A stretch of 58,442 nucleotides of DNA, taken from contig CAIMUX010000118.1 in assembly GCA_903844735.1 (NCBI GenBank), positions 1-58,442 on the forward strand, written 5' to 3'. Of the stretch, positions 21,738 to 41,160 are shown in pieces (the first letter of the stretch is position 1; each line of letters begins with the position of its first letter). Position numbers and translations under genes: made by a program. The stretch is from Candidatus Eiseniibacteriota bacterium (GTDB lineage Bacteria > Eisenbacteria > RBG-16-71-46 > CAIMUX01). The notes beneath the pieces are model-generated. The model saw only the letters and a program-made list of their open reading frames with translations, was not told the origin of the DNA and did no database searches.

Positions 21738-22874
21738 TCAATGTTTTCCGACGAACCCCTCCAGCGCATCCGCGATCCGCTCGGAGGCGTGACCATCGCC
21801 GAACGGGTTGGCCACCCTGGCCATGCTCTCCCAGGCCTGCTGGTCCTCGATGAGTCGCCCCGCCTCGGTCAGGATGCGATCCGGGTCGGTGCCCACCAGG
21901 CGCGCCGTGCCTGCCTCGATCCCCTCCTGACGTTCCGTCGTCTCACGCATAACGAGAACCGGCCGGCCAAGTGAGGGCGCTTCTTCCTGGATCCCTCCCG
22001 AATCGGTGAGAGCGATCCGACAGCGGTCGAGCAGCCAGACCAGGGAGATATAGTCCACGGGCTCTATCAGGTGCATGTTGGGCAACCCTCCAAGGAGGCG
22101 CTGCACCGGTTCGCGAACGCGCGGGTTCAGGTGGACGGGATAGACGAGGTCCACCTCCGGGTGTGCCCGGGCCAGGGCGGCGATTCCGTGGCCGATTCCC
22201 TCGAGTCCTGGACCGAATGACTCACGCCGGTGGCCGGTGATCAGGACCAGGGGGGCGCCGGGTCGCAGAAAAGGGAAGGCCGAGGAGACCCTCGTCTGCA
22301 GGCTGGCGTCGGATCGTAGCCGAGCGACCGTGGCCAGGAGCGCATCGATCACGGTATTGCCGGTGACGTGAACCCGTTCTGCCGCCACACCTTCACGGAG
22401 AAGATTCTGTTGCGCCCTCTGCGTTGGGGCAAAATGGAGATCCGCCAGGACGGAAATGAGCCGTCGGTTGGCTTCCTCTGGAAATGGCCGAGAGAGGTCG
22501 CCGGTGCGGAGCCCTGCCTCCACGTGGGCCACCGGTATCCGTTCATGAAAGGCGGCCAGGGCGGCGACGAACGCGGTTGTGGTGTCCCCTTGCACTAGAA
22601 TTAGATCGGGACGCTCTCTTTGCAGAACGGACGGCAGCTTCGCGAGCACCGCGGAGGCGACCTCTGACAGCGTTTGTCCTGGGTTCATGAGATCCAGATC
22701 AGTGTCGGCGACTAGGGAAAACGCCGCTAAGGCCTGATCCAGCATGGAGCGGTGCTGGGCCGTGGCGCAAATGTGGGTATGAAACCGCCGCGGACGGCGA
22801 CGGAGTTCGTGGACGACCGGAGCCATTTTGATGGCCTCCGGTCTTGTGCCCACCACGATGAGAGTGCGAATCAT
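21738..22874 (-). CDS. wecB: UDP-N-acetylglucosamine 2-epimerase (non-hydrolysing), second copy
   Basis: Predicted 378 residues, full length. Landmarks: LIVVGTRPEAIKMAPVV, CATAQHRSMLDQ, ILVQGDTTTAFVAALAAF, VAHVEAGLRTGD, PEEANRRL, TGHRRESFG and ALTDSGGIQEEAPSLGRPVLV. The catalytic and UDP-contact motifs are intact and closer to classical WecB/MnaA than the copy at 12350. It makes UDP-ManNAc for surface polysaccharide. It stands alone on the minus strand, divergent from a glycosyltransferase gene. Confidence 0.92.
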   Translation of the reverse strand: MIRTLIVVGTRPEAIKMAPVVHELRRRPRRFHTHICATAQHRSMLDQALAAFSLVADTDLDLMNPGQTLSEVASAVLAKLPSVLQRERPDLILVQGDTTTAFVAALAAFHERIPVAHVEAGLRTGDLSRPFPEEANRRLISVLADLHFAPTQRAQQNLLREGVAAERVHVTGNTVIDALLATVARLRSDASLQTRVSSAFPFLRPGAPLVLITGHRRESFGPGLEGIGHGIAALARAHPEVDLVYPVHLNPRVREPVQRLLGGLPNMHLIEPVDYISLVWLLDRCRIALTDSGGIQEEAPSLGRPVLVMRETTERQEGIEAGTARLVGTDPDRILTEAGRLIEDQQAWESMARVANPFGDGHASERIADALEGFVGKH

Positions 22875-24524: not shown

Positions 24525-25949
24525 TCAAGGAGCGAGCCGACCTTCAGTGTCTGCTGGAACCAAACTCAGCGTGGCCTCCGAGGTTGGCACGATCATGTTC
24601 AGCAGGCAGAGCGCGAGCCCGGCGGCGAACCACCAATAGATCTCGTACAGGTCCATCCCGAACACACCAAGAACCAAGCGCACGAGAACGAACCCGCCAG
24701 CCGCCCGGCAGACCGCGAGTAACAGATCCAGGTCCCGCCTGTGGCCGACAAGGGCCACGCGGCGTCGTTCGTCGTCCGACTCCGTCTGCAGCGCCCGATC
24801 CACGCTGTCCTGTTGTTCACGAAATCTGCGATACGCTTTGCGGTAGGAACTGAGGATCGCGCCGATCAATGCCAGGAAGACGATCAGCCCTTGAATCCCG
24901 AGGTTCGTGGCGACCTCAAGGTATAGATTGTGCGTGTCCTGGAAGCGTCCGAATTTTTCCATGCGGACTGCTGGGAAGGAGCCAACGCCGATGCCAGCGG
25001 GGTTCTCCAAAAAGATCGCGAGCGCGTCTTCCTGTATCTCAATTCTCGTTGCCCTGGATCCACTTCCACCCTTTGAACCAGACGCCTGGGGGCCGCCGAT
25101 GCTGAGAAACCGATCCTTGTACTGCTGAGGTGTGAACACAAGTCCGATAGAGCCAAGGATCAGCCCGAAGGTGAGCCATCGAGCCTTGCGCCTAGACACT
25201 GCAAACCAATAGATCAGAAAGGCCAGGAATCCAACGTAGCCGGTTCGGGACCCCGAATATAGGACGCAGATGATCGAGGTTGCCAGCAGGGCCAGCAGGG
25301 CACAACGCAGGAACCATCCACGCCAGACTGGAAGCAGGAAGACTACGAATGTCACTGCGCCCATCGCCAGCCCGGCGAGGCTGTTGGGGTGGCGATAAAT
25401 GGGCACAGCGCCGTGCAGTCGCATGACCCCCTGATTCTCCCAAACCAGGCCGCCAGAGATCAGGCCTCGCACCGACTCCTGTGTGATGTAGAAACAGGAT
25501 AATAGGAAGGCGTACAGAAAGAATGTAAGGCGATGGGGCGACTGGATGAGCACCATCATGAAGAAGGTCAGACATGCGAATTTGGCGACTCTGTCCACGA
25601 ATATATTCTGCGCGCTAGCTTGGTCTGCCGCAAACGGTACCTGTATAATTATGGCGACAAAGAGGCACACAATCATGAGGATGACCATCTTCGCCCGGCC
25701 CAGGTCCGGGCGTTGAACGATTAGCAATCCCGCGCAGGCGACGGTCAGCAGAAGCCCCAGCGAGAACTCGCTGCGGATGGCCCTGAAGATCGCACGTCTG
25801 ACGCCCCATTGCATGTACCTATCCATGACGAAGATGAGAAACGGACCGAAGACTAGCCAGGTGTGCTCGGTATAGCGGGGCCAAGGCGAAGTCGCTCTCG
25901 GAGCAGTCGTGCGACGAGATGCGAGGTCTACTGCGTTTCCGTTGGTCAT
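24525..25949 (-). CDS. O-antigen ligase/polymerase family membrane protein (Wzy_C type)
   Basis: Predicted 474 residues, start supported by GGAG seven bases upstream. About eleven to twelve hydrophobic segments. A large extracytoplasmic loop contains HGAVPIYRHPNSLAG, and a second loop has ENPAGIGVGSFPA followed by FQDTHNLYLEVATNLGIQGL, the conserved THNxYL feature of the Wzy_C/WaaL superfamily. It may polymerise repeat units or ligate chains in the periplasm; sequence alone does not separate the two, but with a Wzx flippase at 41171 polymerase is more likely. Confidence 0.85.
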   Translation of the reverse strand: MTNGNAVDLASRRTTAPRATSPWPRYTEHTWLVFGPFLIFVMDRYMQWGVRRAIFRAIRSEFSLGLLLTVACAGLLIVQRPDLGRAKMVILMIVCLFVAIIIQVPFAADQASAQNIFVDRVAKFACLTFFMMVLIQSPHRLTFFLYAFLLSCFYITQESVRGLISGGLVWENQGVMRLHGAVPIYRHPNSLAGLAMGAVTFVVFLLPVWRGWFLRCALLALLATSIICVLYSGSRTGYVGFLAFLIYWFAVSRRKARWLTFGLILGSIGLVFTPQQYKDRFLSIGGPQASGSKGGSGSRATRIEIQEDALAIFLENPAGIGVGSFPAVRMEKFGRFQDTHNLYLEVATNLGIQGLIVFLALIGAILSSYRKAYRRFREQQDSVDRALQTESDDERRRVALVGHRRDLDLLLAVCRAAGGFVLVRLVLGVFGMDLYEIYWWFAAGLALCLLNMIVPTSEATLSLVPADTEGRLAP

Positions 25950-26437
25950 GCTTGGTCTCCGTATCCCGCTGCTGAGGTCTGCCAGCCTGCCCTGATCTTA
26001 TGGTGGGCGGCGGCAGTCGTGTTGAGATTGTGGTGGGTCACAACTCCTTCAACGGCGGTGTCATTGTAGATACAAGTAGTCGCAACTCGCGCGAAGCGGG
26101 CTTTCAGCAGGGATCCGGGCATGATGGGCGGGGAGATTCCGATGCTACCCGGGCGGCGGTTCCTCCCGGGGCTTCGTGAAGCATCATCGCTCCGGGCCGC
26201 ATCACGGTCGGAGGGCCCAGGTGGAATCCGCCGCCGCGCTCAGTAGGCGTCCGATAGTCGGCTGGAGTCACTCGGCAGGATCGTCAGCGATCGCCCTTCC
26301 CGCTGGAGGTCTCGATAGGATCTGTGAATCAAATCGCCGCCGTTCGGTCGGGCAATGAGTTACCATCCCCCCGCGAAGGGTACATTTCGTGATGACCTAA
26401 TCAGGCGACGTACGCAAGTCGTCACGTGGAGTGCTTC
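25950..26437. other. Divergent intergenic region, no gene seen
   Basis: About 490 bp between the polymerase gene (minus) and the acetyltransferase gene (plus). GC-rich, with small local inverted repeats around 26120-26180, none strong enough to call. It probably holds promoters for both directions. Confidence 0.35.
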
Positions 26438-26995
26438 ATGTTCGACATATTCAGGACGGATGTCGGCAACAGGCGTCGCTATGGCTGCACGGACTCTACC
26501 TTGCGGCTCTTGGTGAACCAGCAAGGACTGTGGACCATAGCGTGTTACTGCGCTGGAAATTATCTGGCGAGACACACATTGCCGCCGATCCTGCACCAGA
26601 TGGTGATGATTCCCTCTCACGTGTGGCAAAAGTCCGTGGAAATGACGACCGGGATCTCCATCCCGCTCGACTGCACGATCAGCCCGGGGCCGCACATTGG
26701 CCACGTCGGAGGCATCATCCTTCGTCCGGGCGTGAAGATCGGTAGTGACTGCAATCCTTCCCAGGGTGTCACACTCGGGCTTGGAGCCAGTAAGGGGATC
26801 TGGGGCGCCCCCACGCTCGGGATTCGAGTCTATGTGGCCCCCGATGCCAAGGTCATCGGGCCGGTTCACCTTGCGGACGGCACCGTCGTGGGCGCCAAGA
26901 CGGTGGTGATCCATAGCACTTCGGAAAGCGACCTGGTCGCGGGCGTGCCCGCCAGAGTCATCTCTGACAAGGGCAGCGGGGCCTACATCCGATGA
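26438..26995 (+). CDS. Serine acetyltransferase-like (LbH) O-acetyltransferase
   Basis: Predicted 185 residues from the ATG at 26438 (GGAG seven bases upstream); a GTG at 26426 is possible. The second half is a left-handed beta-helix of hexapeptides (GPHIGHVGGIILRPGVKIG; VYVAPDAKVIGPVHLADGTV), close to CysE with HIGH at the active-site turn. It is shorter than CysE (~270 residues), like the many CysE-related enzymes in polysaccharide loci that acetylate sugars. Overlaps the next gene by ATGA, so translation is coupled. Confidence 0.85.
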   Translation: MFDIFRTDVGNRRRYGCTDSTLRLLVNQQGLWTIACYCAGNYLARHTLPPILHQMVMIPSHVWQKSVEMTTGISIPLDCTISPGPHIGHVGGIILRPGVKIGSDCNPSQGVTLGLGASKGIWGAPTLGIRVYVAPDAKVIGPVHLADGTVVGAKTVVIHSTSESDLVAGVPARVISDKGSGAYIR

Positions 26996-28137
26996 GCCGA
27001 GGATGCTCCTGCGATACCACGACCCGCCGGGGAACAACGGCGGCCCAGGCAAGAATACTGTTTTGCATCGACAGCATACATCGCGGTGGGACGGAGTCCC
27101 AGCTCATCGGTCTAATCAATCGGCTTGACCGCCGCCGGTTCTCGCCTCGCCTGTGCACTCTGCGATCCTCGGAGAGCTACATCGAAGATGCTGAGTGCCC
27201 ACGGCTGGAGTTGGACACCCCACGACTTTTCTCGCCAACCGGAGCTCTACGCCTGCGCCGTTTGACTCGCTATCTACGCCAGGAGGGAGTCGACGTGGTG
27301 CAGACATTCTTCCAGGACTCGACGGTGCTCGGCATGGCCGCCGCACGCCTGGCTTGCGTGCCCGTCAGGCTGGTGGCATTCCGTGACCTGGGCTTCTGGC
27401 GCAACCCCCGGCAGGAGTTCCTGATGCGTCGCGCCTACCCCCTGGCGACGGGATTCCTGGCCAATTCCCAAGCGGTCAAGGATCGTGTTTGCACGCGGGA
27501 CCGTCTGGATCCCTCCCGGGTCCGTGTCATCCACAACGGTATTGATAGCAGCCGGTTCCGCTTCGTGGAACATCCCGAAGACGAAGTCGCGATCGGCATT
27601 GTTGGCAACCTGAACCGGCGAGTCAAACGAGCAGATCTCTTCCTGCGCGCTGCTGCGCGAGTGGCTGCGCGATATCCCGGGGTGACCTGGCATCTCATCG
27701 GCGATGGCGAGTTGCGGCCCCAGTACGAGGCCCTGGCGGCCGAACTGGGCATTGCCGGCCACACCGTGTTCACGGGCCGACTCGCTGACGTGCCGACCTA
27801 CCTGCAAAGGCTCGCCATTGGCGTGATCTGTTCTGACTCGGAGGGATTCAGCAACGCAATTCTTGAGTATATGCTCAGCGGTTGCGCGGTGGTCGCCACG
27901 GCGGTTGGCGGCAATCTCGAAGCCGTGCACGATGGAAAAACCGGATTGCTTGTACCTCCAGGCGACGAGGTCGCTCTCGCGAATGCCCTGAGCCATCTGG
28001 TGGAGGAGAGGGCGGTCCGGTTGAGGATCGCGCGAAATGCCCGTGCTATGGTTGAGCGGGAGTTCGGTTGGGCAAGGTGCCTCGCGGACCATGAAGAGTA
28101 CTATCTTTCCTCGCTGCTGGCCGCAGGCGCGGCCTAA
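26992..28137 (+). CDS. GT4 glycosyltransferase
   Basis: Predicted 381 residues, start at the ATGA overlap with the acetyltransferase gene. ILFCIDSIHRGGTESQLIGL is the acceptor-side glycine loop. VIHNGIDSSRF and IGIVGNLNRRVKRADLFLRA mark the start of the donor domain. DSEGFSNAILEYMLSGCAVVAT is the EX7E-type donor-binding motif (Glu in SEGF and Glu in EYM). A retaining GT-B enzyme acting on a lipid-linked glycan is predicted; sugar unknown. Middle gene of a three-gene plus-strand operon. Confidence 0.9.
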   Translation: MSRGCSCDTTTRRGTTAAQARILFCIDSIHRGGTESQLIGLINRLDRRRFSPRLCTLRSSESYIEDAECPRLELDTPRLFSPTGALRLRRLTRYLRQEGVDVVQTFFQDSTVLGMAAARLACVPVRLVAFRDLGFWRNPRQEFLMRRAYPLATGFLANSQAVKDRVCTRDRLDPSRVRVIHNGIDSSRFRFVEHPEDEVAIGIVGNLNRRVKRADLFLRAAARVAARYPGVTWHLIGDGELRPQYEALAAELGIAGHTVFTGRLADVPTYLQRLAIGVICSDSEGFSNAILEYMLSGCAVVATAVGGNLEAVHDGKTGLLVPPGDEVALANALSHLVEERAVRLRIARNARAMVEREFGWARCLADHEEYYLSSLLAAGAA

Positions 28138-28171: not shown

Positions 28172-29536
28172 ATGCGCTTCCCCGACTGGATGGTGGGCCG
28201 ATTGTTCGAGCCCGCCTGGGATTTCTACGAGGGCAGCGTGCGTCTGCGTACCTATCGGGAGCTGGCGCGCCATCAGTTCGACGCGCCGGCTGTCCTGGAG
28301 GTCCGGAGGCAGGAACGTCTGAATGCGCTGGTCCGCCATGCCGCCGCGGCCTCGCCCTTCCACCGCAGGCGCCTCGAGGTGGCGGGGATCGATCCGGCGA
28401 CTGTGCGGTCGATATCTGACCTGGGCAACCTGCCCTTGCTGACCAAGGCGGATGTGCGAGGAAGTATCGAGGAGATCCTGGCCGCAAGCCACCCGCGCGC
28501 GAATCTCGTTTCGGCCAAGACAGGTGGCTCCACCGGCACTGCAATGCACGTCTTCTGTGATTGGCGCGGCTTCGGGATGCGCCAGGGTGCCGCCTTGCTC
28601 GCCGATACCTGGAGTGGCTGGCGGCTCGGTCAGCCCATGGGCGCGGTCTGGGGCAACCCACCTCGGGCCGACACCTTCCGCCGACGCTTGCGAAGGGTCT
28701 TGAAGGACCGCTTCTTCTACCTGGACACCATGCGCCTGGACGGGGCTGCGGTGCGGGAGTTTGCTGCCCGCTGGCGCCACCTTCGTCCCAGTCTCCTCTA
28801 TGGTCACGCCCACTCACTCTACTTGCTGGCCACAATGCTCGAGGAAATGGGGGAGGTCCTGCGGCCGCGGGCCATCGTGGCCACCAGCATGATGCTCCTG
28901 CAACCAGAGCGAAACATCATCGAGCGTGTTTTCGCGGTTCCGGTTACCAACCGCTATGGTTGCGAGGAGGTCGGCCTGATTGCCTGTGAGTGCGAGCGGC
29001 ATGTGGGCCTGCACATCAATGCAGAGCATGTTGCGCTAGAAGTCCTCCGCGATGACGGCACACCCTGCGATCCTGGCGAGGATGGCCGCATCGTCGTCAC
29101 CGAGTTCGTCAACTTCGGCATGCCGATGCTGCGCTATGAAGTCGGAGACCGCGGCGTGCTGCATGACCGGCCCTGCCCTTGCGGACGTCCTCACCCGCTG
29201 TTGCGAACTGTGACCGGGCGCACGGCCGACTTCTTGGTAGCTGCCGACGGGAGCCGGGTGGCAGGGATCTCGCTCATCGAAAACACGCTTACTCGGTACC
29301 CTGGTATCGCGCAATTGCAGGTGGTGCAGGAGGATGTCGGACGCATCGACCTGAACGTGGTGCGCGCCGCTGGCTGGGACGAGGCTGTTGAGAAGGCGTT
29401 GGTGCTGGCTTTCCGCGAGTCCTTGGGTGGTGATCCGTCCGTGATCCTGCACTTCCGGGACGCTATCCCCCCTGAGCCCAACGGCAAGTATCGGTTCTCC
29501 ATCTGTCGGGTGCCCGGGGTGCGGACTGGGGTTTGA
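28172..29536 (+). CDS. CapK/PaaK-like adenylate-forming enzyme
   Basis: Predicted 454 residues. GAGGA lies eight bases before the ATG. The ATP-binding loop SAKTGGSTGTAMH is near residue 113. NRYGCEEVGLIACECERHVGLH carries a Cys/His cluster typical of CapK proteins, and LRYEVGDRG and the CPCGRPHPLLRTVTGRTADF hinge follow. This matches the phenylacetate-CoA ligase superfamily branch found in capsule loci. The reaction in capsule loci is not established; activation of a carboxylate for attachment to a sugar is a common suggestion. A homologue with the same layout is at 55212. Confidence 0.88.
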   Translation: MRFPDWMVGRLFEPAWDFYEGSVRLRTYRELARHQFDAPAVLEVRRQERLNALVRHAAAASPFHRRRLEVAGIDPATVRSISDLGNLPLLTKADVRGSIEEILAASHPRANLVSAKTGGSTGTAMHVFCDWRGFGMRQGAALLADTWSGWRLGQPMGAVWGNPPRADTFRRRLRRVLKDRFFYLDTMRLDGAAVREFAARWRHLRPSLLYGHAHSLYLLATMLEEMGEVLRPRAIVATSMMLLQPERNIIERVFAVPVTNRYGCEEVGLIACECERHVGLHINAEHVALEVLRDDGTPCDPGEDGRIVVTEFVNFGMPMLRYEVGDRGVLHDRPCPCGRPHPLLRTVTGRTADFLVAADGSRVAGISLIENTLTRYPGIAQLQVVQEDVGRIDLNVVRAAGWDEAVEKALVLAFRESLGGDPSVILHFRDAIPPEPNGKYRFSICRVPGVRTGV

Positions 29537-29594: not shown

Positions 29595-31361
29595 CTACCG
29601 GTGAAACCATTCCAGCAGCAGATAGAGATGGAACGCCAACATGGTTTCCGAGGTCGTGAACCGCTTGATGTGTTTCTCCCGATACCAACGGCTCCGGTAT
29701 AGGCGGTAGCTGTAACGGTCGTGGAGCCCGTTCTCGATACGGTGCCTCCAACTGGGTTGCCGGACTTCCTCAAGCGCGGGAGCGAAGGCGTCGATCACCG
29801 AACGGCAAGCGGTCAGGTCGAGGAGACCGCCCAGATCGTGGCCGGAGTCCAGGTGGGCCAGAGTCCTTTCTCGCACGAAGGGCGCCATGTAGTGATAGTA
29901 ATGGGCTATGCTGCTAACGTGATTACGGCCGTAGGCGAAGAGCCGGGGGTAGAAGCTGCGAAGGCTTTCGATGAAGAGGCTCTTGTGGCAGCGCAGGTGG
30001 CGGGGAACCGTCGTGTAGTGCCGCAGGACGATCCCGGCCAGCAGCGGTCGCCTCACCTGGATGTGCTCCTCGTCACTGATGCCCAGGCCGAGGATGTACC
30101 GATTGATCCCACCCATTTGCCAGAGGTAGTCCCTGCGCTCGGTCCAGCCGTCATTCTTGCAGTGACGGACGACGCTGTCGATCTGCTCGCGGTAGAGCAC
30201 GTCGGCCTTCGCTCGTAGGTCCGGAGCCAGCACGGCCTTGACATGATCAGCGAGCGGGAACGGAACGATCTTGGCGATGGACAGTTCCTCGGAGAGGGCG
30301 GGGGGGCCCGAGCCCCAGGTGACGTCCCCCTTGAGCATGAAATCGAGACTGCCAAAGAAGTCGGGATCAAGTCCGTTCTGACCGAAGTTCTCGGGGTTGT
30401 TGGCCGTGGTCAGCTCGCCCTTGTGTAGGCCGTCCAGCCATGCTTCGGGGCCGATGCTGGGATTCCGGCGGCAGAACCGGTAGGGGAGACCCAGATCCCG
30501 AGCCATCGTTCGTGCCAGAAACGTGTCGCTGCCTGGAATCTCGTCGCTTACGCCGTTGGTAACCACCATGGCCGGCGGCCGGCCCAGTTCCACCGAGGCG
30601 CCGAGCAGGCTACGGCTGTCCCAGCCTCCGCTCAGAAAGATGCCGCCGTGCCCGGACCCCGGCCCGGTGAGCAGGTCGGTCGCTTCTCGTATGCTCTCGC
30701 CCAGCCTGCGACATAGCGTGGCAGGCGAGCTTTCCAGATCTGGCTGGTAGACCAGATTCCAGTATCTTCCTTGGGACAGAGTGCCGCTGTGCAGATCGAA
30801 GGTCAGGATCGTGGCGGGAGTCAGGAAGTTGGCAGCGCGCCAAGGCGTGTTGGGGCCCAGGTAGTGTCCCACCGACAGGAAGTTGACGACAGCGCCGGGG
30901 TTGAGGCCCGCTTCGCGAACTGTCGCAGGCAGGAGACCTAGCCGTGGTGCGACGGCCAAGGCACCATCGTGGTGGTGCCAATAGACCGCCAGGGTGCCGA
31001 CTCGATCATTGAAGAGCCGGGCGTGTCCGCTGGCCCGGTCCAGTTCGAGAACGCAGAAGGCGCCCTCCAGGCGGTCCAGCGCCGCATCGCCATCGCGCCG
31101 GAAGATCGCGGCCAGATCGGCTGCCAGCAACTGCTGGCCGGTCAGTGGATCGGCGCAGTGGCCGTAGAGGACAAGGACGTATTCGCCGGCCGTGTGACAG
31201 GAGACGTGCGCTGGACCGCGATGTCTCAGATAGGCGCCGAGCATGGCGGTCTTGTCCCGATAGAGTTCGCGAGGACAGTAACGCGGCCACGACACAGAAT
31301 CGGGCAGCGCGGTCGCGTCGAGCGTGCGGCCGGAGGTGATCAGGCCGTAGATTCCGGGCAC
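29595..31361 (-). CDS. Asparagine synthetase-like protein lacking the N-terminal cysteine
   Basis: Predicted 588 residues; GTG start with AGGAG about eight bases upstream. The first ~180 residues keep the class II amidotransferase fold (LRHRGPAHV, LDRLEGAFCVLELD, FNDRVGTLAVYW), but the protein begins Met-Pro-Gly, so the catalytic Cys2 is absent and glutamine hydrolysis is not expected. The ATP-pyrophosphatase loop FLSGGWDSRSLLG near residue 240 is intact. It may use free ammonia, an amine or an amino acid as nucleophile, as the cysteine-less AsnB-like lactam and isopeptide synthetases do. Located among polysaccharide genes beside a racemase. Confidence 0.85.
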   Translation of the reverse strand: MPGIYGLITSGRTLDATALPDSVSWPRYCPRELYRDKTAMLGAYLRHRGPAHVSCHTAGEYVLVLYGHCADPLTGQQLLAADLAAIFRRDGDAALDRLEGAFCVLELDRASGHARLFNDRVGTLAVYWHHHDGALAVAPRLGLLPATVREAGLNPGAVVNFLSVGHYLGPNTPWRAANFLTPATILTFDLHSGTLSQGRYWNLVYQPDLESSPATLCRRLGESIREATDLLTGPGSGHGGIFLSGGWDSRSLLGASVELGRPPAMVVTNGVSDEIPGSDTFLARTMARDLGLPYRFCRRNPSIGPEAWLDGLHKGELTTANNPENFGQNGLDPDFFGSLDFMLKGDVTWGSGPPALSEELSIAKIVPFPLADHVKAVLAPDLRAKADVLYREQIDSVVRHCKNDGWTERRDYLWQMGGINRYILGLGISDEEHIQVRRPLLAGIVLRHYTTVPRHLRCHKSLFIESLRSFYPRLFAYGRNHVSSIAHYYHYMAPFVRERTLAHLDSGHDLGGLLDLTACRSVIDAFAPALEEVRQPSWRHRIENGLHDRYSYRLYRSRWYREKHIKRFTTSETMLAFHLYLLLEWFHR

Positions 31362-31581
31362 GGATGTCTCTCCTCTTACCCCAGGTGTTTTCTCAGAACG
31401 GGCTGGAGCCTAGTCGAAGTCCAGGGTAGTGTCTATCGCCAAAGGGGGAGTGAATCGTTCATGTCCGACCTCCCGGGTGTCGAAGACATGACCGGGCTGC
31501 AGGAGTCATTCCACGATGCGGTTGACCCCGGTAGCATTGTCCCCTCGGCCCCTGACCCGACGCACGCCAAGGAGCACGAGC

Positions 31582-32313
31582 ATGCCCGAGAAGCCATTGG
31601 TCCCTGGGATCATCGGTGGGGCTGGCCCCGGGGCGACGGCCCAGCTCTATCTGGACATCATGATCCGCAGCCGCCGGGTTTCCCCGCATCGACGGCCGCC
31701 GGTGCTCATTGCCAGCCTGGACATCGATCTGGCCATGGAGGATCGGCTTCTGCGCGAAGGGGTCGGAATCGAGGGGTACTGGGACTCCCTCCTGGCCGCG
31801 GCGCGCGCCCTCATTGTTGCCGGCGCGGATTTCTTGGCCATTCCCTGCAACACTCTGCATGTCCTGCTGCCCAGACTGGAGACGGCCGTCACTGTTCCGG
31901 TGCTCAGCATCGTGGACGCTGTGGCCCAGGAAGTGGAAGCCGCGGGCTGCCGGCGTGTCGGGCTGCTGTCTACTGCAAGCACCCTCCACACCGGCCTTTA
32001 CGGGGACGGTCTGCGGGCACGCGGGATAGAGGTGGTGTGTATAGGGCTGGCACTGCAGGACTCCCTGCAGGCGCGAATCCGGGACGAGGTGGGGCAACGC
32101 ACGCAGTCCGAGGTCCCCGATCTCGCCGATGAGATCGGGCGTCTCTTCCAAGCCGAAGGAGCCGACGCGATCGTCGCCGGATGCACTGAGCTGAAGGCCT
32201 TCATGGCTGACTGGGTCCTTCCCATGCCCGTGATCGACAGCCTGGACGCCCTTGGGTCCCACATTGTGCGTGTGATGACGCACGACCACCGGTGGCAAGT
32301 TCCGCGACCTTGA
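31582..32313 (+). CDS. Aspartate/glutamate racemase family protein
   Basis: Predicted 243 residues. The ATG at 31582 has GGAG eight bases upstream; the open frame extends 22 codons further but without family sequence. Features: IIGGAGPGATAQLYLDIM at the start, the first catalytic cysteine in FLAIPCNTLHV (~residue 90) and the second in IVAGCTELKAF (~200). Both cysteines of the two-base, cofactor-independent racemase mechanism are present. It should interconvert L- and D-Asp or Glu, or a close analogue. It is divergent from the cysteine-less AsnB-like gene and far from peptidoglycan genes, so a supply of D-amino acid for surface decoration is possible (inference). Confidence 0.88.
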   Translation: MPEKPLVPGIIGGAGPGATAQLYLDIMIRSRRVSPHRRPPVLIASLDIDLAMEDRLLREGVGIEGYWDSLLAAARALIVAGADFLAIPCNTLHVLLPRLETAVTVPVLSIVDAVAQEVEAAGCRRVGLLSTASTLHTGLYGDGLRARGIEVVCIGLALQDSLQARIRDEVGQRTQSEVPDLADEIGRLFQAEGADAIVAGCTELKAFMADWVLPMPVIDSLDALGSHIVRVMTHDHRWQVPRP

Positions 32314-32619
32314 ACGACACATCTCTTTCTGCATCTGTCGGTTACGACTTCGGAAGCTGGCCAAATCGGGCGGCCGGGCCGCGGGTGTTTTCGAAAGATC
32401 CGGAGCTAAAAGCTCGAGTTGCCTCTCGAGTGGAGCACCCTTTGATCTCTACGGCCATCGTTCCAATCTGAGTCCAGAATGCAGGGTGGGACAGGGCACG
32501 CCGCAACCTCGCGGGCGGCCGGCGGGCAGGGCTTGCGGCGTCCCTCGTGTTGGTCTACGTTTGGTTGACCATCTGGGTCGGCCGTGGGCGGGAGTATCGG
32601 GAGTCCGGGACGGGAGCAA
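32314..32619. other. Intergenic region, no gene seen
   Basis: About 305 bp between the racemase and methyltransferase genes on the same strand. A local inverted repeat GAGTTGCCTCTCGAG-like is present near 32412-32430, too weak to call a terminator. No coding signal. Confidence 0.35.
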
Positions 32620-33765
32620 ATGAGCGGGATCGGCACAATCGTTCGCCGTGGAATCCGGGCTTTGAGCGAGGGCCCCGCCGGTCGGGCCGGCCGTTACTTT
32701 TGTCACGGCTGCAATCGATTGCTGCCTGAGAGCTATGTCAATTGGGTTATCCGCCGTATGGCGGCCGAACGGCTGAGCCACTTCCGGACGGCCTGGACCG
32801 CGGTGCTGCATCATCCGATGCACCTGGAGTTGCCTCGCTTCGATCGGCAACAGATCGAGGATATGGTCCTATGGGCACGGGAACGCTTCCTTGAGGCCGA
32901 TTTCTACTTTCTGTCGGACCAGTCCCCCGGATCCATCCCCTATCCTTTTGTCCGGGAGGGCATTCTCTGGCTGCAGGATGCCCGGATGGCTGAGGACCGG
33001 AATCGCCCCCGGGTCTTCTTCTGCGTTTTCGAGAGCGACGAGAAGCTGGCCGATGTTCTTCATGCGATCATGGGCCTGCCTGACTCTTACTACTACACGC
33101 CCAAGGCGTATCTGCCGACGGCCCGCGTCTTCCATCGGGACGACGTGGCCTGGCGGGTGCTCCGGGAGTCGGTTCCGCCCCCGGACAATCTCGACACTTT
33201 TGACCTGGCCGACTACGAGAACATAATCCAGGCCCTGCAGGTTACCCGGGATCTGCCGGGGGTCTATGTCGAGATCGGCGTTTACAAGGGCGCCAGTGCC
33301 GAGCTGGCCTTGAACTACATGCGCCAGGCCGGCATTCAACGACACACTTTTCTGTTGGATCTGTTTGAGGGTTTTTCCTACCCAGCGGCCAAGGCCAGTC
33401 CGGATGCATTCTGGGTGGGCCAGTTCGGTAGCACGTCCCTGGCCGTAGTCACCACGCGTCTGGCCGGCTTCGCGGGCAAAAGCCTGGTGAAATGCAACAT
33501 CGTCACCGACGACCTTCCCGAAGGACTCAACGACATCGCCGTAGCCAACATCGACGTGGACATCTATGAGGCCGTGGCCGCCGCCTTGAGCAAGATAGCG
33601 CCTCGAATGGTCAAGGGTGGGATCATCCTGGTCGAGGATCAAGGGCACACGCCCAACATCGCGGGGGGCTATCTGGGGCTGAGAGATTTTCTGGCCGGCC
33701 CTCTGGGGCGGGAGTTCATCCCCTGGAACCTAACCTCGGGCCAGGCACTGCTCATCCGCAGGTAG
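32620..33765 (+). CDS. TylF/macrocin O-methyltransferase-like SAM enzyme with N-terminal extension
   Basis: Predicted 381 residues. The ATG at 32620 has GGGAG only three bases away; a GTG at 32584 is an alternative. The last ~190 residues are the methyltransferase: YVEIGVYKGASAELAL (SAM glycine loop), TFLLDLFEGFSYP, DDLPEGLNDIAVANIDVDIY and MVKGGIILVEDQGH. The DxD/metal-binding layout matches TylF-type Mg-dependent sugar O-methyltransferases. The first ~190 residues do not resemble a domain I can name; they contain FCHGCNRLLP, two cysteines that may bind metal. Likely methylates a sugar of the surface glycan. Confidence 0.82.
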   Translation: MSGIGTIVRRGIRALSEGPAGRAGRYFCHGCNRLLPESYVNWVIRRMAAERLSHFRTAWTAVLHHPMHLELPRFDRQQIEDMVLWARERFLEADFYFLSDQSPGSIPYPFVREGILWLQDARMAEDRNRPRVFFCVFESDEKLADVLHAIMGLPDSYYYTPKAYLPTARVFHRDDVAWRVLRESVPPPDNLDTFDLADYENIIQALQVTRDLPGVYVEIGVYKGASAELALNYMRQAGIQRHTFLLDLFEGFSYPAAKASPDAFWVGQFGSTSLAVVTTRLAGFAGKSLVKCNIVTDDLPEGLNDIAVANIDVDIYEAVAAALSKIAPRMVKGGIILVEDQGHTPNIAGGYLGLRDFLAGPLGREFIPWNLTSGQALLIRR

Positions 33766-34368
33766 GACGTCAGCGAGGAGCCCTCATTGTGCTGGCGGCC
33801 GCTCTTTTCGGCTGGGGACCGATGTCGAGGCCGGGGGCCAGTTGACTCTGCTGCCTGTTGGGCAGAATCTCCGGCTCTCCGCTACGGACACCACGGACGT
33901 CGATGCGTCGTTGTGCATGATTGATTCTCAATGGCGTCGAGTACGCGGACAACATGTCCGCACACGACCGTTGCCAAAGTAGCACTCTGCGCCGATTACG
34001 GTTTTGTATGACGATTGTGCGTGTAGCAGGTTCTGGCCGCCTCTGCTATCGTCACGGCCCGTCCTGCCACTCAACCGTCGCACGTCCGCTACCGCCCGCC
34101 CCCTCCGTATGCGCTTCTGGTCAACAAGGGCCGCGATGCTCGCCTACCGGCCTCGGCTGCTGAAGGCGGCGGGTGTGAGCCAGGTTCAATGCTGGCTCAT
34201 TGCACTCTCCCGCTCCTTACTGGCTGCCGGAGATGCTTGCGGATCTGACCGTCTCACCCTTCGAAGAATCTAGGGTGTGCGAGACCGTACCCTTCGCTGT
34301 GGCAAGCCAACCTGTCGTTGGCATGTGCGTGGGACCGGGTCCGGGAGTCCCGGCATCCAGGCTTGCCA
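33766..34368. other. Intergenic, no supported gene
   Basis: About 600 bp. A small stem (GAGCCAG at 34177-34183 with CTGGCTC at 34192-34198, 8-nt loop) could help terminate one of the flanking transcripts, but there is no T-run. Translations in all frames are featureless. Confidence 0.4.
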
Positions 34369-36246
34369 TCAGGGATCGATACCGAGCGGCACGATCGGAT
34401 CGGTCGGCCGGTCTGTCGCTTCGATAAACTGGCGAATGAAGAGCTCGACGAGCAAGATGGTGCCCACGACGTTCCACACATGACGGCCCGTCCGCAGATC
34501 GTGACAAAGGCGCCGCAGCCCCAGCGGGCGCCAGAATCCGCGCTCCATGCAGCGTTCGGATAGGACGATACCGTCCACGAAGTCACGGACGGGGCGCCAC
34601 CGTCGGTACCACTGTCCGTAAATCGGAAACGACAACCCATAGGGCAGGTTGATCCGGCCCCGCGACAGCAGGCAAAGCATGTCCTTCATGCGGGCCCTGC
34701 GTCGCAGTCGCCGCATCCCCTGCTCGTGGGCAAGCGGCAAGCCCTCGCGAACGGGAATGACGATGCCGTCCTTGACACGTGGAATCTTCGTAACGATCGG
34801 CATGTGATTCTGCGCCCACCGGATCTGGGCTACTCTGTCCAGCAAGCCAGTTGCTTCCAGGGTTGCACCGAGATCGAACACATCCTTGTCAAGAAATGGG
34901 GACACCACATCAGTCCACGGTAGGACTTGGCCGAGGAGGCAGGGAATTGTGAATGCCTCTACTCGGAAGCGCCATTTGAAATCGAGCAAGTTCTCATAGC
35001 GACCGGAAAAACCGATCCTTTCCATGATGTCGATCACTGACCGTTCCGGAACGGCGGTTACGCGATCTGTCAGCTCAGCGGTGAAGGCAGATTGCATGTC
35101 ACGGTCAGGCCGAAAGATTAGTCCCTTGGCGAAAAAGCGGCGGCAGGCCGCTTCGATCGAATCAGAGGAGGCGTCGATCAGGTCAACAGCGTCGAATGCG
35201 CCGCCGAAAATCGCCTCCCCCAGCATGCCGTGAAGCTGTGGACCGGGTGGGAGGTGGCCGCCGAAAGCTGCGCCAACGTAGTGCATGTGGTTCGGCAGGA
35301 CCCGCCCCTCGGTGAACCAGACCATTTTCCCAAACCAATCCGCCATCCCTTCGCCTTCGATCCTGAGGACACGAATCGGGACATTCAGAAGCTCCGCCGT
35401 CCGTTCTGCCATTCGAACATCCACCGAGCCATCTTCCCCAGTGGTGAACGCTTCCAGTTTCATACCCGCTCGCTGGGCCGCTGCGCACAGGAGTCTCGAG
35501 TCGAGCCCGCCGCTGAGTGAAATGGAGAATCGAGGCGAGACGCCTGCATAGCGGCTCAAGGAGCGCTGAACCAGTGAGTCGTACTCCGCGACTGCCTCGT
35601 CATCCACAGGGCGATTGCGCGGATACCCCGGTGTCGGGAGCGGAGTGATTTGTAGCCCCGTCTCGCCGAATGCGAGCCGGTGGTGACCCGGCAGCCGCCG
35701 GACTCCCGCCACCAGCGTGTGGGGTTGGCTCAAGTAACCGATGGCCATCATTTCCGCCACTGCATCGAGATCGACAGCGTCATGCCCAGGTTCGACCAAG
35801 AGCCTGATCTCGGAACTCACGAGCAGTGTCTCGCCTCTCCGGCGGTAGTACACGGGAACGGTGCCGAATCGGTCGGTCAGTACGGTGAGCTCCCGGGCGC
35901 GGTCGTCGCAATGGGCTAGGACGAAACAGCCGCCGAAATTGGGAGTTTCTCCGGGCGCGAGGTCGCGCCAAGCGGTGAGAATCGACGCTGGGTCGGCCAA
36001 TTGCGCGGCGTGCGAATCCACCCAGCACGAACCGCTGCAGAGCAGTACCCGGTCGCCGTCCTGCGCGATCCCACCGCTCGGCAAACTCCCATGGTGGACT
36101 GAGATGCCGATCAAAGAATCCGTGGAAATCCGGTCCGCTGGCTGGCCGGGAAGAACAGTAAGCCGATTCGCGGCTCGGTCGGCGAAGACCTCCCGACTTT
36201 CCCTGTCCAGCCCGGCTGGACGATAGCACAGGAACAACCCGATCAT
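34369..36246 (-). CDS. Second asparagine synthetase-like protein lacking the N-terminal cysteine
   Basis: Predicted 625 residues, starting MIGLFLCYRP, so again no Cys2; glutaminase activity is not expected. The degenerate glutaminase-like domain still shows FGGCFVLAHCD and TDRFGTVPVYYRR. The synthetase domain has FSISLSGGLDSRLLCAA near residue 242 and GEDGSVDVRMAERTAELLNV after it. The C-terminal ~100 residues are Arg/Trp-rich and longer than in AsnB. Sequence differs strongly from the 29595 protein, so this is an old paralogue, not a recent copy. Ligase using a non-glutamine amine donor is inferred; asparagine synthesis itself is unlikely with AsnB at 15240. Confidence 0.82.
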   Translation of the reverse strand: MIGLFLCYRPAGLDRESREVFADRAANRLTVLPGQPADRISTDSLIGISVHHGSLPSGGIAQDGDRVLLCSGSCWVDSHAAQLADPASILTAWRDLAPGETPNFGGCFVLAHCDDRARELTVLTDRFGTVPVYYRRRGETLLVSSEIRLLVEPGHDAVDLDAVAEMMAIGYLSQPHTLVAGVRRLPGHHRLAFGETGLQITPLPTPGYPRNRPVDDEAVAEYDSLVQRSLSRYAGVSPRFSISLSGGLDSRLLCAAAQRAGMKLEAFTTGEDGSVDVRMAERTAELLNVPIRVLRIEGEGMADWFGKMVWFTEGRVLPNHMHYVGAAFGGHLPPGPQLHGMLGEAIFGGAFDAVDLIDASSDSIEAACRRFFAKGLIFRPDRDMQSAFTAELTDRVTAVPERSVIDIMERIGFSGRYENLLDFKWRFRVEAFTIPCLLGQVLPWTDVVSPFLDKDVFDLGATLEATGLLDRVAQIRWAQNHMPIVTKIPRVKDGIVIPVREGLPLAHEQGMRRLRRRARMKDMLCLLSRGRINLPYGLSFPIYGQWYRRWRPVRDFVDGIVLSERCMERGFWRPLGLRRLCHDLRTGRHVWNVVGTILLVELFIRQFIEATDRPTDPIVPLGIDP

Positions 36247-37430: not shown

Positions 37431-38543
37431 ATGCCGGACACCGGCCCACATCCTTGGTCGTCGGGCGGCCGGGCGGACTCGGGGCTGATGCCGTTCAAGC
37501 GTAGACTTCGGGGCTGGCTCTTGGCATGCCCGGGCTTCCAGGCTCTGTGTCGTATGTTGACGCGAGAGCATGTGCGTACCTTGATGTACCATCGGTTCTC
37601 TGGGGATGCCAGCCCGGATGGCCGGAGCATGCACGCTGCACGGCTGCGCGAGCAGGTCGACTGGATGCGCCGCCACCATGATTTGTGGCGGCCTGACGAC
37701 CACCTCGACCTTGTCCTGGGACGGCGACGCCCCGGCCGCTGCCCGGTCGTCGTGACGGTGGATGATGGCTATGCCGACTTCTGCTCGATCGCGTTCCCGA
37801 TCTTCCGGGAGCACGGGATTCCGGTCATGCTGTTCGTTACCACGGGGTTCGTGGACGGAACGATCTGGCTCTGGTGGGATCGGCTGGCCTGGATGTTGGC
37901 GCACGCTTCCCCCGGGCGTGGCACAGCCGACATTGGCGGGCACGAAGTGGCCTGGGACCTGAGGAACGATCGGGGACAGACGGCCGCCTGGCACGCCATT
38001 GCCGATCGCTGCCGCTTCGTCCCTGACACACAGAAGGAGGATTCGTTGCGCGCATTGGGTGAAGCCCTCGGCGTGGTTCTGCCCACCCAGGTCCCGCCGG
38101 AGTATGCGTCCGTCACCTGGGAGCAGGTTCGCACCATGGCCGCCGAAGGCCTTCAATTGGGCGCCCACAGTGTGACCCACCCAATTCTATCGCGGGTCTC
38201 GCCTGACGAGCTCACGGCCGAAATCGTCGGCTCGCGCCGCCGCCTTCAGGAGGTCGTGGGGATCGACACTGCCTGGTTTTGCTACCCGCAGGGAGGACCT
38301 GCTGACTTCACGCCTGCAGTGCAGGAATCCGTGCGTGAGGCCGGATTCCGCGGCTGCTACGTGGCTTGGCAGATCGATCGTCGGCCGCCGGACCCGTATG
38401 CGTTGCCGCGCTACGGTGCCTCGACGGACGGATTGGAGTTCCGTTGGACACTGTGCGGAGCGGCGTGGCTGACCCTCTGTCTCCGTCGCTGGCTTGGTGT
38501 GAGGACCGAACTCGGAGACTGGTACTGGGGGGGCACAAGATGA
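37431..38543 (+). CDS. Polysaccharide deacetylase (NodB domain)
   Basis: Predicted 370 residues from 37431 (GGAG four bases upstream); an ATG at 37488 is possible. TLMYHRFSGD is the entry motif of the PgaB/IcaB-like branch. VVVTVDDGYADF provides the catalytic DD, LGAHSVTHPILS the HxxxH metal ligands and FCYPQGGPADF the motif 3 turn. All ligands are present. No signal peptide is obvious, so it may act on a cytoplasmic lipid-linked sugar or be exported another way. First gene of the operon to 42694. Confidence 0.87.
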   Translation: MPDTGPHPWSSGGRADSGLMPFKRRLRGWLLACPGFQALCRMLTREHVRTLMYHRFSGDASPDGRSMHAARLREQVDWMRRHHDLWRPDDHLDLVLGRRRPGRCPVVVTVDDGYADFCSIAFPIFREHGIPVMLFVTTGFVDGTIWLWWDRLAWMLAHASPGRGTADIGGHEVAWDLRNDRGQTAAWHAIADRCRFVPDTQKEDSLRALGEALGVVLPTQVPPEYASVTWEQVRTMAAEGLQLGAHSVTHPILSRVSPDELTAEIVGSRRRLQEVVGIDTAWFCYPQGGPADFTPAVQESVREAGFRGCYVAWQIDRRPPDPYALPRYGASTDGLEFRWTLCGAAWLTLCLRRWLGVRTELGDWYWGGTR

Positions 38544-38586
38544 GGCATCGACCTTGGACGAACCAGGTAACTCTGCGGGGGAGCGG

Positions 38587-39489
38587 ATGATCGAAACGCC
38601 GCTCGTGTCAGTCGTGATTGCCGCCTACAACATGGGGCAGTACATTCGCGAGGCCATCGATTCGGTGCTCGCCCAGGACTGGCCAGCAGTCGAGGTGGTG
38701 CTGGTCGATGACGGTTCGACGGATGAGACCGCGTGCGCTCTGGACGCATACGCGGACGAACCTCGTGTCACAGTAATCCGTCAGGCCAACGCAGGTCAGA
38801 CGAAGGCCAAGAACGCCGGCCTGCGCGTGGCCCGCGGTGAGTACGTGGGGTTTTGCGATGCGGACAACGTGTGGCTGCCCGGAAAGCTACGCCGGCAGGT
38901 GCCGCTGCTCCAGGCGAATCCCGGGGCCGGTGTCGTCTACGGCGACGTGGCGCTGATCGGACCGGCCGGGGAGTCGCTGCCCGCGCCGCGAGTGAAGCGC
39001 TGGGGCGGTCGTATCAGTGGCCGCCTGCTCGCCGACAACTTCGTCACCTTCAACACCACCCTTACACCGCGCCGGGTCCTGGAGGAGTTCGGTGGCTTCG
39101 ACGAGTCGTTGCGGATGGCCATCGATTACGATTTGTGGCTGCGCGTTTCGACCAAATACGAGTTCCTCTATGTGCGTGAAACATTGGTGCAGTATCGAAT
39201 CTGGGGTGGGCAGATGTCGCATCGCACCGGCGAGCGCCTGGACAGCTACTTCCGCTTGCTCGAGCGGTTCCTGGAACGCTACCCCGACAGCGTTTCCCAG
39301 GCCGACGTGGCGGGCGCCTACGCCCATACCTACATCACGCGCGGGATCTGGCGTGCCCGGGAAGGTGATCGAGCGGCCGCCTGGCGTGACCTGTTGCTCG
39401 CCTGTCGGCGTCGCCCAATCGACATCCGTCTCTGGCGGGTCGCCGCCTCTCTGGCTCTTGGCCGCCTTGGTCCGCGGGGACGTACATGA
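38587..39489 (+). CDS. GT2 glycosyltransferase
   Basis: Predicted 300 residues. The ATG at 38587 starts right before the GT-A core; GGGGGAG lies three bases upstream. PLVSVVIAAYNMGQYIREAIDSV, EVVLVDDGSTDET and GFCDADNVWLPGK are the nucleotide-sugar and DxD metal motifs. MAIDYDLWLRVS is the acceptor-side ED/DxDLW region. Soluble or peripheral inverting transferase, one of several chain-building enzymes. The stop overlaps the next start as ATGA. Confidence 0.9.
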   Translation: MIETPLVSVVIAAYNMGQYIREAIDSVLAQDWPAVEVVLVDDGSTDETACALDAYADEPRVTVIRQANAGQTKAKNAGLRVARGEYVGFCDADNVWLPGKLRRQVPLLQANPGAGVVYGDVALIGPAGESLPAPRVKRWGGRISGRLLADNFVTFNTTLTPRRVLEEFGGFDESLRMAIDYDLWLRVSTKYEFLYVRETLVQYRIWGGQMSHRTGERLDSYFRLLERFLERYPDSVSQADVAGAYAHTYITRGIWRAREGDRAAAWRDLLLACRRRPIDIRLWRVAASLALGRLGPRGRT

Positions 39490-40501
39490 GCCTGGCTCTT
39501 GGGTGGGCCACCCAGGCTGATATGCCCGCGCTGCGTTCGTTTCTGATGAGCGTTTATGGACAGGGGGCCGTCCAGACCGCTCCCGGTCGCTGGGACTGGC
39601 TCGGAGGAGGTCATCCGCGCGGCATGCACGTCGCACTGGCTCGCGCCTCGGGGACAATCGTCGGCTCCTGCTGCCATATCCCGATGCGCATCACAGTGGG
39701 TACACGGGAGATAAGCGCAGCGTATGGGCTCGATCTCATCGTTGATCCGTCAAGGAGAGGCCAGGGCGTGGGCAAGGCCTTGCTGGCGTTGCGCCTGGAT
39801 CGCTTTCGGGTCAGTCTCTCCACGGGGCAGTCGCCGGCGATGGCCGGGCTCTACGCCAGGGCCGGCGGACGAGATTGCGGACCGGTGGTGCGCGCATTGC
39901 GAGTGCGCCGCCCGACGGTGGCTGCCGCGCCGCGCGCGCTGGCGCGTGATTTCGTTGCCTGGGGGTTGGGCGTGGCACGGGGGGGCGCGGCGGTACGCGA
40001 CAAGCGCTGTCGGTCGCTGAAGCGGGGAGACGCCCGCAGGTCCTCGGCACGCGCCTGAGGCCCGACGAGGCAGGTCCGTGCCGGGACGCCGCGGGCTTCG
40101 CCTGGCGTTACGGAGGATCCGTCTATGCGGATCACACTTGCTGGGAAGTGACGGCCGACCTTCGGCCCGGCTTGGTGGTGACGCGACAGGAGGGTGATTC
40201 CGAGATTATTGTCGATGTCTTTGCGGTTCCCGACGATCTGCCGGCTGTCCTTCGGGCGACGGCCTGCACGTCTACGGCCTCCCGCCTTATCGCTGACTTG
40301 CACGGTTCACGCCTCGCGGCGGCGTTCAGAGCCGCCGGTTGGTTCGTGCGCCCCCGAGATGCGCGCTTTGTTGTCCTGGCGAAGGACCCGGAACTGCTGA
40401 CAGAACTCGCGCGCCGGCCATGGGCCTTCTTCGCGGGGGAATCGGATCTCGACCTGTTGCGCTACCCGGCGCCTCCGGGCGGCGGAAGAAGGGAGTTGTG
40501 A
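39486..40501 (+). pseudogene. GNAT-family N-acetyltransferase, frameshifted
   Basis: The first reading frame (from the ATGA overlap at 39486) encodes a GNAT core: GTREISAAYGLDLIVDPSRRGQGVGKALLALR contains the R/Q-x-x-G-x-G/A acetyl-CoA loop. It stops at 40058. Similarity then continues in another frame (FAWRYGGSVYADHTCW to the TGA at 40499-40501). A run of seven G at 39979-39985 lies between; one extra base there would restore a ~338-residue protein, the expected size. It may be a real mutation, a sequencing or assembly error, or a slippage site. The intact product would N-acylate an amino sugar. Confidence 0.7.
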
Positions 40502-41160
40502 TGGGCATTCTCCGCCATGTGCTGGGCAAGACGCGGCTCTACCGGGCCTTGGCGTACGCCCATGGGGCATCAATGCGAGCGGATTCTGCCCGCCGCTACC
40601 GGCCGGAGCATTTCGCCCGCTACGGCGATGGAGTACGAATCGACTCCGGGGTTCACATCACGCACCCGTCACGCGTGGTGATCGGCGATGGAACCACGAT
40701 CCAGAGCCAAGTCGCCCTGCACTCGCAGGGTGGACTGCACATCGGACGGTACGTGGGAATAGGTTACCGTTCGGTCATCGTCACCTTTCAGCATCGCTAT
40801 CGCAACGCGAGAACGATCCCCTTCGACAATGGAATCTTTCTCCAACCGGTTCTGATCCGCGACTATGCCTGGATTGGCTGGGGTTCAATGATACTGCCGG
40901 GCGTGGAGATAGGCGAGGGTGCAATCCTCGGCATGGGTTCTGTGGCGACCAGGAGTGTCCCTCCGCTGGCCATCGTGCACGGCAACCCCGCCCAAGTGAT
41001 CGGTTACCGCAGCAGTGAACATTTCGCGCGATGTAAGGCGGAAGGAAGGGTGACTCCCCACCGAATCGGTGAACTCTTCGGGACATTTGAGGAGATCATT
41101 CCGCTGATGACGAAGCAGCGCTGCGAGCTAGAGTTGCGCGAGTTGGGCCTAATCGAGTAA
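40501..41160 (+). CDS. Left-handed beta-helix acyltransferase (WcaF/maltose-acetyltransferase-like)
   Basis: Predicted 219 residues. The ATG at 40501 overlaps the preceding stop (TGATG) and has GGGAG seven bases upstream. Hexapeptide repeats run from HITHPSRVVIGDGTTIQSQ to GVEIGEGAILGMGSVATRSV, with HRYRN near the active-site His and HGNPAQVIGYR as the terminal turn of the family. Acetyl-CoA-dependent O-acetylation of a sugar is predicted. A C-terminal ~60-residue helical tail is additional. Confidence 0.87.
   Translation: MGILRHVLGKTRLYRALAYAHGASMRADSARRYRPEHFARYGDGVRIDSGVHITHPSRVVIGDGTTIQSQVALHSQGGLHIGRYVGIGYRSVIVTFQHRYRNARTIPFDNGIFLQPVLIRDYAWIGWGSMILPGVEIGEGAILGMGSVATRSVPPLAIVHGNPAQVIGYRSSEHFARCKAEGRVTPHRIGELFGTFEEIIPLMTKQRCELELRELGLIE

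Follow-up and report, generated by a model that had tools for sequence, protein, structure and literature searches.

A co-inherited cassette of two asparagine synthetase-like proteins lacking the glutaminase site, a racemase and a methyltransferase in a bacterial surface-glycan locus

The window analysed here, that is, the whole stretch of 58,442 nucleotides of contig CAIMUX010000118.1 (C118) in the 5.4 Mb genome of a Candidatus Eiseniibacteriota bacterium (assembly GCA_903844735.1, hereafter G000), contains two proteins of the asparagine synthetase B (AsnB) fold, A1 and A2, which enclose an amino acid racemase and a methyltransferase. These four genes constitute a co-inherited cassette, and the order in this region is capK(+), A1(-), racemase(+), methyltransferase(+) and A2(-). 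Judged from alignment, the glutaminase of both AsnB-like proteins is dead, and it is tentatively proposed, at somewhat less than even confidence, that the cassette decorates a lipid-linked repeat unit made by the Wzx/Wzy system with an amino acid, with A2 as the ligase and A1 as its partner or as an altered ligase.

First of all, co-inheritance was surveyed in 47 genomes of the class, namely G000 and 46 others. Close homologues of A1, the racemase and the methyltransferase were confined to two of the 47, G000 and G009 (Candidatus Eisenbacteria metagenome-assembled genome (MAG) RS_17_35, JAGMDA010000306, which belongs to the same class and a different family), and none was found in the other 45. 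The identities of the G009 copies to those of the window are 70% for A1, 66% for the racemase and 71% for the methyltransferase, the sole further racemase match in the class (G035) being 32% identical. Beyond the window A2 has a single close counterpart, again in G009, which covers 103 residues of the C-terminal part (76%). A 3.3 kb segment of one G009 contig, on which Wzy is also encoded, contains the methyltransferase, the racemase and A1, and A2 lies on another contig with a capK remnant and Wzx. The chance that the racemase and the methyltransferase would both fall with A1 at random among the 46 genomes is about 1 in 2100. Because the four parts recur together in G009, while the other 45 genomes of the class are without close homologues, the cassette is regarded as co-inherited. 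The original prediction had linked the AsnB-like pair to the racemase and methyltransferase and proposed a co-occurrence check; the link holds, with A1, the racemase, the methyltransferase and the A2 piece found together in a single genome out of the 46 besides G000.

The loss of the glutaminase site was examined from the start codons onwards. A1 starts at a GTG preceded by a clear ribosome site (AAGAGGAGAGACATCC-GTG) and begins MPGIYGLI, and its frame is open for just 16 more codons upstream, with no Met-Cys among them; A2 starts at an ATG and begins MIGLFLCY, with no obvious Shine-Dalgarno sequence upstream and no Met-Cys in 8 further open codons. An alternative start giving Met-Cys is thus ruled out for both. 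Residue 2 is Pro in A1 and Ile in A2, so the Cys2 nucleophile of AsnB of the TIGR01536 type is absent. The window's own canonical Cys2 AsnB (MCGI), which served as the internal control for this loss, was aligned with A1 and A2 together with AsnBs from viral contigs. In the numbering of this control, the R49 column is empty in both proteins, NGE (72–74) becomes YGH in A1 and SGS in A2, and SDTE (96–99) is absent from both, A2 having a D in the D97 column; that is to say, the glutamine pocket is lost as well. The TIGR01536 scores, 32.0 bits for A1 and 72.7 bits for A2, are both under the curated cut-off of 267.1. Since Cys2 and the pocket motifs have both gone, the glutaminase of A1 and A2 is, as read from these alignments, dead. 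The original prediction, which rested on Met-Pro and Met-Ile starts with a kept SGG(W/L)DSR loop and left an upstream start to be checked, is therefore borne out by the open reading frames (ORFs), starts and alignment, and is extended from Cys2 to the pocket.

The ATP-pyrophosphate loop SGGxDS is intact, being SGGWDSR in A1 and SGGLDSR in A2, and the residue following the loop is Arg in both, in place of the Ser, Thr or Ala of the canonical rows of the same alignment. Among the relatives described below, the loop residues G, G, D, S and R are invariant in 12 of 12 rows of type I (that of A1) and in all four rows of type II (that of A2), and nucleotide binding is therefore probably kept in SGGxDSR proteins. 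In addition, RVKDG of A2 falls on the lysine of the canonical RxKxGF motif in hhalign and in alignment A5 and is placed differently in a broader alignment, so that A2 probably retains the catalytic RxK lysine.

AlphaFold2 models were obtained for both proteins (A1: predicted local distance difference test (pLDDT) 70.8, predicted template modelling score (pTM) 0.75; A2: pLDDT 69.2, pTM 0.76), with canonical AsnBs from viral contigs added to deepen the alignments. The top structural matches of both models are AsnB-fold proteins; in Foldseek searches of the PDB the best match of the A1 model is TsnB9 (7ylz, E 6.6e-15), and that of the A2 model is beta-lactam synthetase (1m1z, E 1.4e-17). The structure-prediction check suggested earlier is thus in agreement with the AsnB fold. 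As for the earlier notion of two ligases, A2 fits it by its loop and probable lysine, whereas A1 is left uncertain, its clade lacking the RxK lysine.

Beta-lactam and carbapenam synthetases are AsnB-fold enzymes with a dead glutaminase, in which an amine other than ammonia is the nucleophile. The AsnB fold and dead glutaminase are common to these enzymes (1m1z, 1jgt, 1q15) and to A1 and A2, but the cassette proteins have the SGGxDSR loop, are 13–18% identical over the model and, in the case of A1, lack the RxK lysine; moreover, no clavam or carbapenem biosynthesis genes were found among the neighbours scanned, which are glycan genes. Among solved structures, TsnB9, a hydroxyamidotransferase, comes closest to the SGGxDSR profile in sequence (E 4.6e-23, with an alignment covering residues 100–277 only) and to A1 in fold, but its loop reads GGLDSS in the alignment. 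WbpS/WbqG and the XrtA/PEP-CTERM amidotransferase are, like A1 and A2, AsnB-family proteins of surface-glycan loci, but they are of the glutamine-dependent type; on the XrtA/PEP-CTERM model TIGR03108, A1 and A2 score 46.1 and 45.2 bits and do not reach the cut-off of 816.9.

The racemase, whose start at 31582 is correct (AAGGAGCACGAGC-ATG), passes TIGR00035 with 106.3 bits (cut-off 93.1) and matches PF01177 with 117.8 bits; its score against CuyB cysteate racemase (NF052483) is 130.6 bits, under the cut-off of 190. Both catalytic cysteines (IPCNT and AGCTEL) align with those of Pyrococcus horikoshii aspartate racemase 1jfl and are conserved in G009, as had been predicted for the window copy. 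The methyltransferase, with the likely start ATG 32620, matches TylF PF05711 in its C-terminal half only (41.9 bits, gathering cut-off 23), and its PDB matches are of the NovP and MycF type. Its N-terminal region of about 200 amino acids (window about 32620–33210) has no Pfam match, yet it is well conserved in G009.

Around the cassette, domain profile scans identified 2-epimerases, a UDP-sugar dehydrogenase, glycosyltransferases, a deacetylase, acetyltransferases, Wzy and Wzx, and the earlier assumption of a glycan setting is supported by the uronic-acid genes among them. In the proposed route, the racemase would supply an acidic amino acid in the D-configuration, as expected from its family; A2 would adenylate a carboxylate, either that of a uronic acid from the 2-epimerase and dehydrogenase genes or that of the amino acid itself; and an amine other than glutamine-derived ammonia would attack the adenylate to form an amide, by a logic of the beta-lactam synthetase type. 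A1, with the ATP loop kept and the lysine lost, may be a partner subunit or a ligase of changed mechanism, the TylF-like enzyme may O-methylate a sugar of the repeat unit, and the window's canonical AsnB would carry out ordinary glutamine-dependent amidation. This amide ligase reading is favoured because four features are consistent with it: the racemase inherited along with the pair, the genes for a uronic acid, the unimpaired ATP loop and a fold resembling that of beta-lactam synthetase. Of the original prediction that the pair joins a (D-)amino acid to a uronic acid, the dead glutaminase, the racemase link and the glycan setting stand, while the ligase activity and the substrates are inferred.

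AsnB-fold enzymes have repeatedly been diverted to new chemistry that yields amides, lactams or nitriles, and, to our knowledge, few ligases have been assigned for the addition of amino acids to bacterial polysaccharides. The cassette points to an unassigned route for this purpose and, being compact with four genes, is directly testable by expression. In the literature searched, no description of the combination of AsnB, racemase and glycan was found. It has been reported that the Wbp/Vim pathway of Porphyromonas gingivalis and Tannerella forsythia produces uronic-acid sugars bearing amino acids, with the participation of a deacetylase and, in P. gingivalis, of an AsnB-family member; in that pathway VimA, which resembles N-acetyltransferases, is the proposed transferase for Ser or Gly, and the uronamide is the product of WbpS (PMC7468200). 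The two loci are alike in logic (uronic acid, deacetylase, amino acid on sugar, AsnB member), though no VimA-like Acetyltransf_6 protein and no WbpB or WbpE enzymes were found among the window proteins scanned, in which a small GNAT protein and a deacetylase are present. The psc1 exopolysaccharide (EPS) cluster of Rubrivivax gelatinosus contains several AsnB genes, CapK, a deacetylase, FemAB and Wzx/Wzy, and resembles the present locus in gene content, no racemase being seen in the excerpt of its description (PMC3684757). The earlier label of an undescribed system is thus to be narrowed: the co-occurrence of several AsnB genes with CapK and FemAB in EPS loci is already on record (PMC3684757), and it is the Cys-less SGGxDSR pair that is undescribed in the literature searched.

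SGGxDSR proteins without Cys2 also occur in G009 (A1), G053 (two), G218, G271, G148 and five genomes of family f257; the N-terminus of a further one, in G027, is not resolved. In a tree of 17 SGGxDSR rows and sampled canonical AsnBs, whose loop is mostly DSS in place of DSR, the two sets are separated by a fully supported split, several branches being very long. Type I comprises A1, one G053 protein and the f257 proteins (support 100/99), and type II comprises A2, the other G053 protein and that of G027 (87/77), and weakly that of G218. Two or three SGGxDSR genes share one locus in six genomes: G000 and G053 have one of each type in a single locus, and G394, G395, G397 and G398 have two or three adjacent type I copies. 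The glycan locus that contains the G053 pair also encodes a DegT aminotransferase, a GNAT/FemAB-like protein, a protein that matches ATP-grasp weakly and a deacetylase; the last of these adjoins the A1-like gene and is related to that of the window (tblastn E 2e-31, L048:11273-12109). The SGGxDSR protein lies beside Wzx in G218 and G271, with a FemAB-like protein nearby, and also in G148, with two CapK-like genes downstream. As to the searches, a contig profile search with the A1 alignment returned just two relatives, already known; the viral contigs gave one weak SGGLDSR match; the three genomes of G218's phylum gave no SGGxDSR match; and the matches of profile A7 at E 1e-40 were mostly canonical AsnB over positions 1–320, so mainly full-length matches were followed. 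The idea that all Cys-less AsnB-like proteins have SGGxDSR was rejected on account of L016 (MSGIFG) and L037, which are Cys-less with SGGxDSS, and the loop of a G150 relative is SGGWDSK. Pro takes the place of Cys2 in A1 (both genomes), G053b, G397, G398, G395 (twice), G150, G148, G271 and G081, where removal of Met may leave a free N-terminal Pro, and residue 2 of the remaining Cys-less proteins is Ser, Ala or other.

Several points weigh against the amide ligase reading. The cassette is present in a single relative, where it is split between two contig fragments whose ends truncate both A1 and A2; the examined stretches of G053 and G218 yielded no homologue of the racemase; in the five f257 genomes, which belong to another phylum, it is secreted proteins and not glycan genes that are encoded near type I; and the models of A1 and A2 are of medium confidence, with pLDDT about 70. 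Besides, the RxK lysine is absent from A1 and its whole clade with the loop kept, and the GDE motif of canonical AsnB reads GDV in A1 and GEA in A2, the latter having Glu in place of Asp and the motif's own Glu lost. It is from these lost residues, the lysine of the A1 clade and the Glu of both proteins, that the view of A1 and A2 as degenerate AsnB paralogues draws its force, in which they would be ATP-binding structural or regulatory partners of glycan synthesis, with the racemase and methyltransferase acting independently. This is considered unlikely, since the loop is invariant in all type I and type II rows, A2 probably still has the lysine, and the co-inheritance of the racemase suggests chemistry.

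An ordinary build-up of AsnB paralogues in an exopolysaccharide locus, with the racemase as an unrelated neighbour, would have a published parallel in the psc1 locus with its several AsnB genes, CapK and FemAB (PMC3684757), but is quite unlikely, because a close racemase and methyltransferase occur only in the two A1-bearing genomes of the class and lie beside A1 in both.

Another view takes A1 and A2 as ammonia-dependent amidotransferases, by which free NH3 would give a plain uronamide or asparagine. The AsnB-family enzyme PesC can indeed take free ammonia instead of glutamine (PMC13060819), and WbpS of P. gingivalis, also of the AsnB family, turns a uronic acid into a uronamide (PMC7468200); however, a canonical Cys2 AsnB is already in the window, and two more copies and a racemase would be redundant, which makes this view improbable.

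Improbable to the same degree is that A1 and A2 assemble an acyl group containing an internal lactam, such as a methylated pyroglutamate-type acid, for an amino sugar, with CapK as the activating enzyme. The top structural match of A2, the presence of a racemase and a methyltransferase in the cassette, and the CapK, GNAT and hexapeptide transferases close by are in keeping with it, but the methyltransferase resembles sugar O-methyltransferases, and CapK is broken in G009. The adenylation motifs TGGSTG, RYGCEE, RYEVGD and NGK are present in the window's CapK sequence and partly in PaaK alignments, it reaches no curated cut-off, and its PDB matches are phenylacetate-CoA ligases. The G009 homologue (L047:11501-12166, -), directly behind A2, is 5′-deleted, with the first half missing and an in-frame stop. 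CapK is therefore probably dispensable, although some caution is called for because the G009 MAG is fragmented; an essential role was set aside, and the earlier suggestion of CapK as another activating step is weakened. A second CapK/PaaK-like enzyme lies at 55212-56585 (-) of the window (NF045666 148.5 bits, below the cut-off).

It is highly improbable, though suggested by the f257 type I genes, that the Cys-less SGGxDSR proteins are a family of amide synthetases with a dead glutaminase which work in pairs, of type I with type II in glycan loci and of tandem type I paralogues elsewhere, and which make an amino-acid-bearing sugar or modify cargo for anchoring proteins sorted by the type IX secretion system (T9SS) or exosortases at the surface. 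Many of the secreted f257 neighbours have FG-GAP-like sequence, and both of those tested carry T9SS sorting tails; a T9SS type A sorting tail is also present in one window protein (2356-3459, -; TIGR04183 27.8 bits, cut-off 23), and two exosortases (PF09721) are encoded elsewhere in G000 (C25:16946-17701 and C2:112736-113494), with no link to the locus found here. The known T9SS linking sugar bears an amino acid (PMC7468200). Finally, that A1 and A2 are cyclases of the lasso or macrolactam type acting on a small ribosomal peptide is scarcely credible and largely refuted: AsnB-like enzymes of ribosomally synthesized and post-translationally modified peptides exist (PMC13060819) and A2 gets 41 bits (NF033561) and 35 bits (NF033535), but these are far under the cut-offs of 300 and 525, A1 has no match, no lasso leader peptidase or PqqD-like protein is among the window proteins scanned, and no intergenic small ORF is conserved in G009, where only edges of known genes appeared.

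Table 1. Genes of the cassette and of the surrounding glycan region, in window coordinates.
Feature	Position	Strand	Basis and remarks
A1, AsnB fold without glutaminase, type I	29595..31361	-	588 aa; MPGIYG; SGGWDSR; RxK lysine absent
Asp/Glu-type amino acid racemase	31582..32313	+	TIGR00035, PF01177; both catalytic Cys
TylF/NovP-like methyltransferase	32620..33765	+	PF05711; readable also from GTG 32584
A2, AsnB fold without glutaminase, type II	34369..36246	-	625 aa; MIGLFL; SGGLDSR; RxK lysine probably kept (IPRVKDG)
CapK/PaaK-like adenylate-forming enzyme, adjoins A1, probably accessory	28172..29536	+	NF045666 128 bits (cut-off 300, not reached)
Wzy-type polymerase / O-antigen ligase	24525..25949	-	PF04932; 57% homologue on G009 cassette contig
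Wzx-type flippase	41171..42694	+	PF13440 225.6 bits; 61% homologue on G009 A2 contig
Hexapeptide acyltransferase (CysE/EpsC-like)	26426..26995	+	Profile scans
Glycosyltransferase	26992..28137	+	TIGR03088 155.6 bits, below cut-off
Polysaccharide deacetylase, could expose amine	37431..38543	+	PF01522
Glycosyltransferase family 2	38554..39489	+	PF00535
GNAT acetyltransferase	39486..40058	+	PF13508
Hexapeptide acetyltransferase (WcaF-like)	40339..41160	+	Profile scans
UDP-sugar dehydrogenase, UDP-ManNAc type, putative uronic acid source	13444..15303	-	TIGR03026 246.5 bits (cut-off 189.8)
Canonical Cys2 AsnB, XrtA-amidotransferase-like	15240..17132	-	TIGR01536 497.4 bits (cut-off 267.1); MCGI start
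UDP-GlcNAc 2-epimerase	21738..22874	-	PF02350 (392 and 292 bits for the window's two 2-epimerases)
Second UDP-GlcNAc 2-epimerase	12224-13447	+	PF02350 (see previous row)

The glycan region is adjoined by mobile elements (44814-47470 and 51112-52527), namely a partial reverse transcriptase, a large serine recombinase and an ISKra4-like transposase.

Separately, the FG-GAP secreted proteins near type I pairs, of which the one tested has a T9SS tail, share a conserved in-frame TGA with a Cys codon after it (e.g. SYG-TGA-C-IGATP), the sites being L158:5154-5156 and 6820-6822, L160 minus 16807, and L161 minus 7155 and 9077. Downstream of this TGA there is a near-invariant CCACG-GAT-CGTGG hairpin, whose folding energy is not unusual in comparison with shuffled sequences, and genes with an AIR-synthase domain, which we read as SelD-like, lie near the FG-GAP genes (L158:2079-3023, L160:17583-18566). 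The FG-GAP proteins with TGA-Cys are a candidate selenoprotein family.

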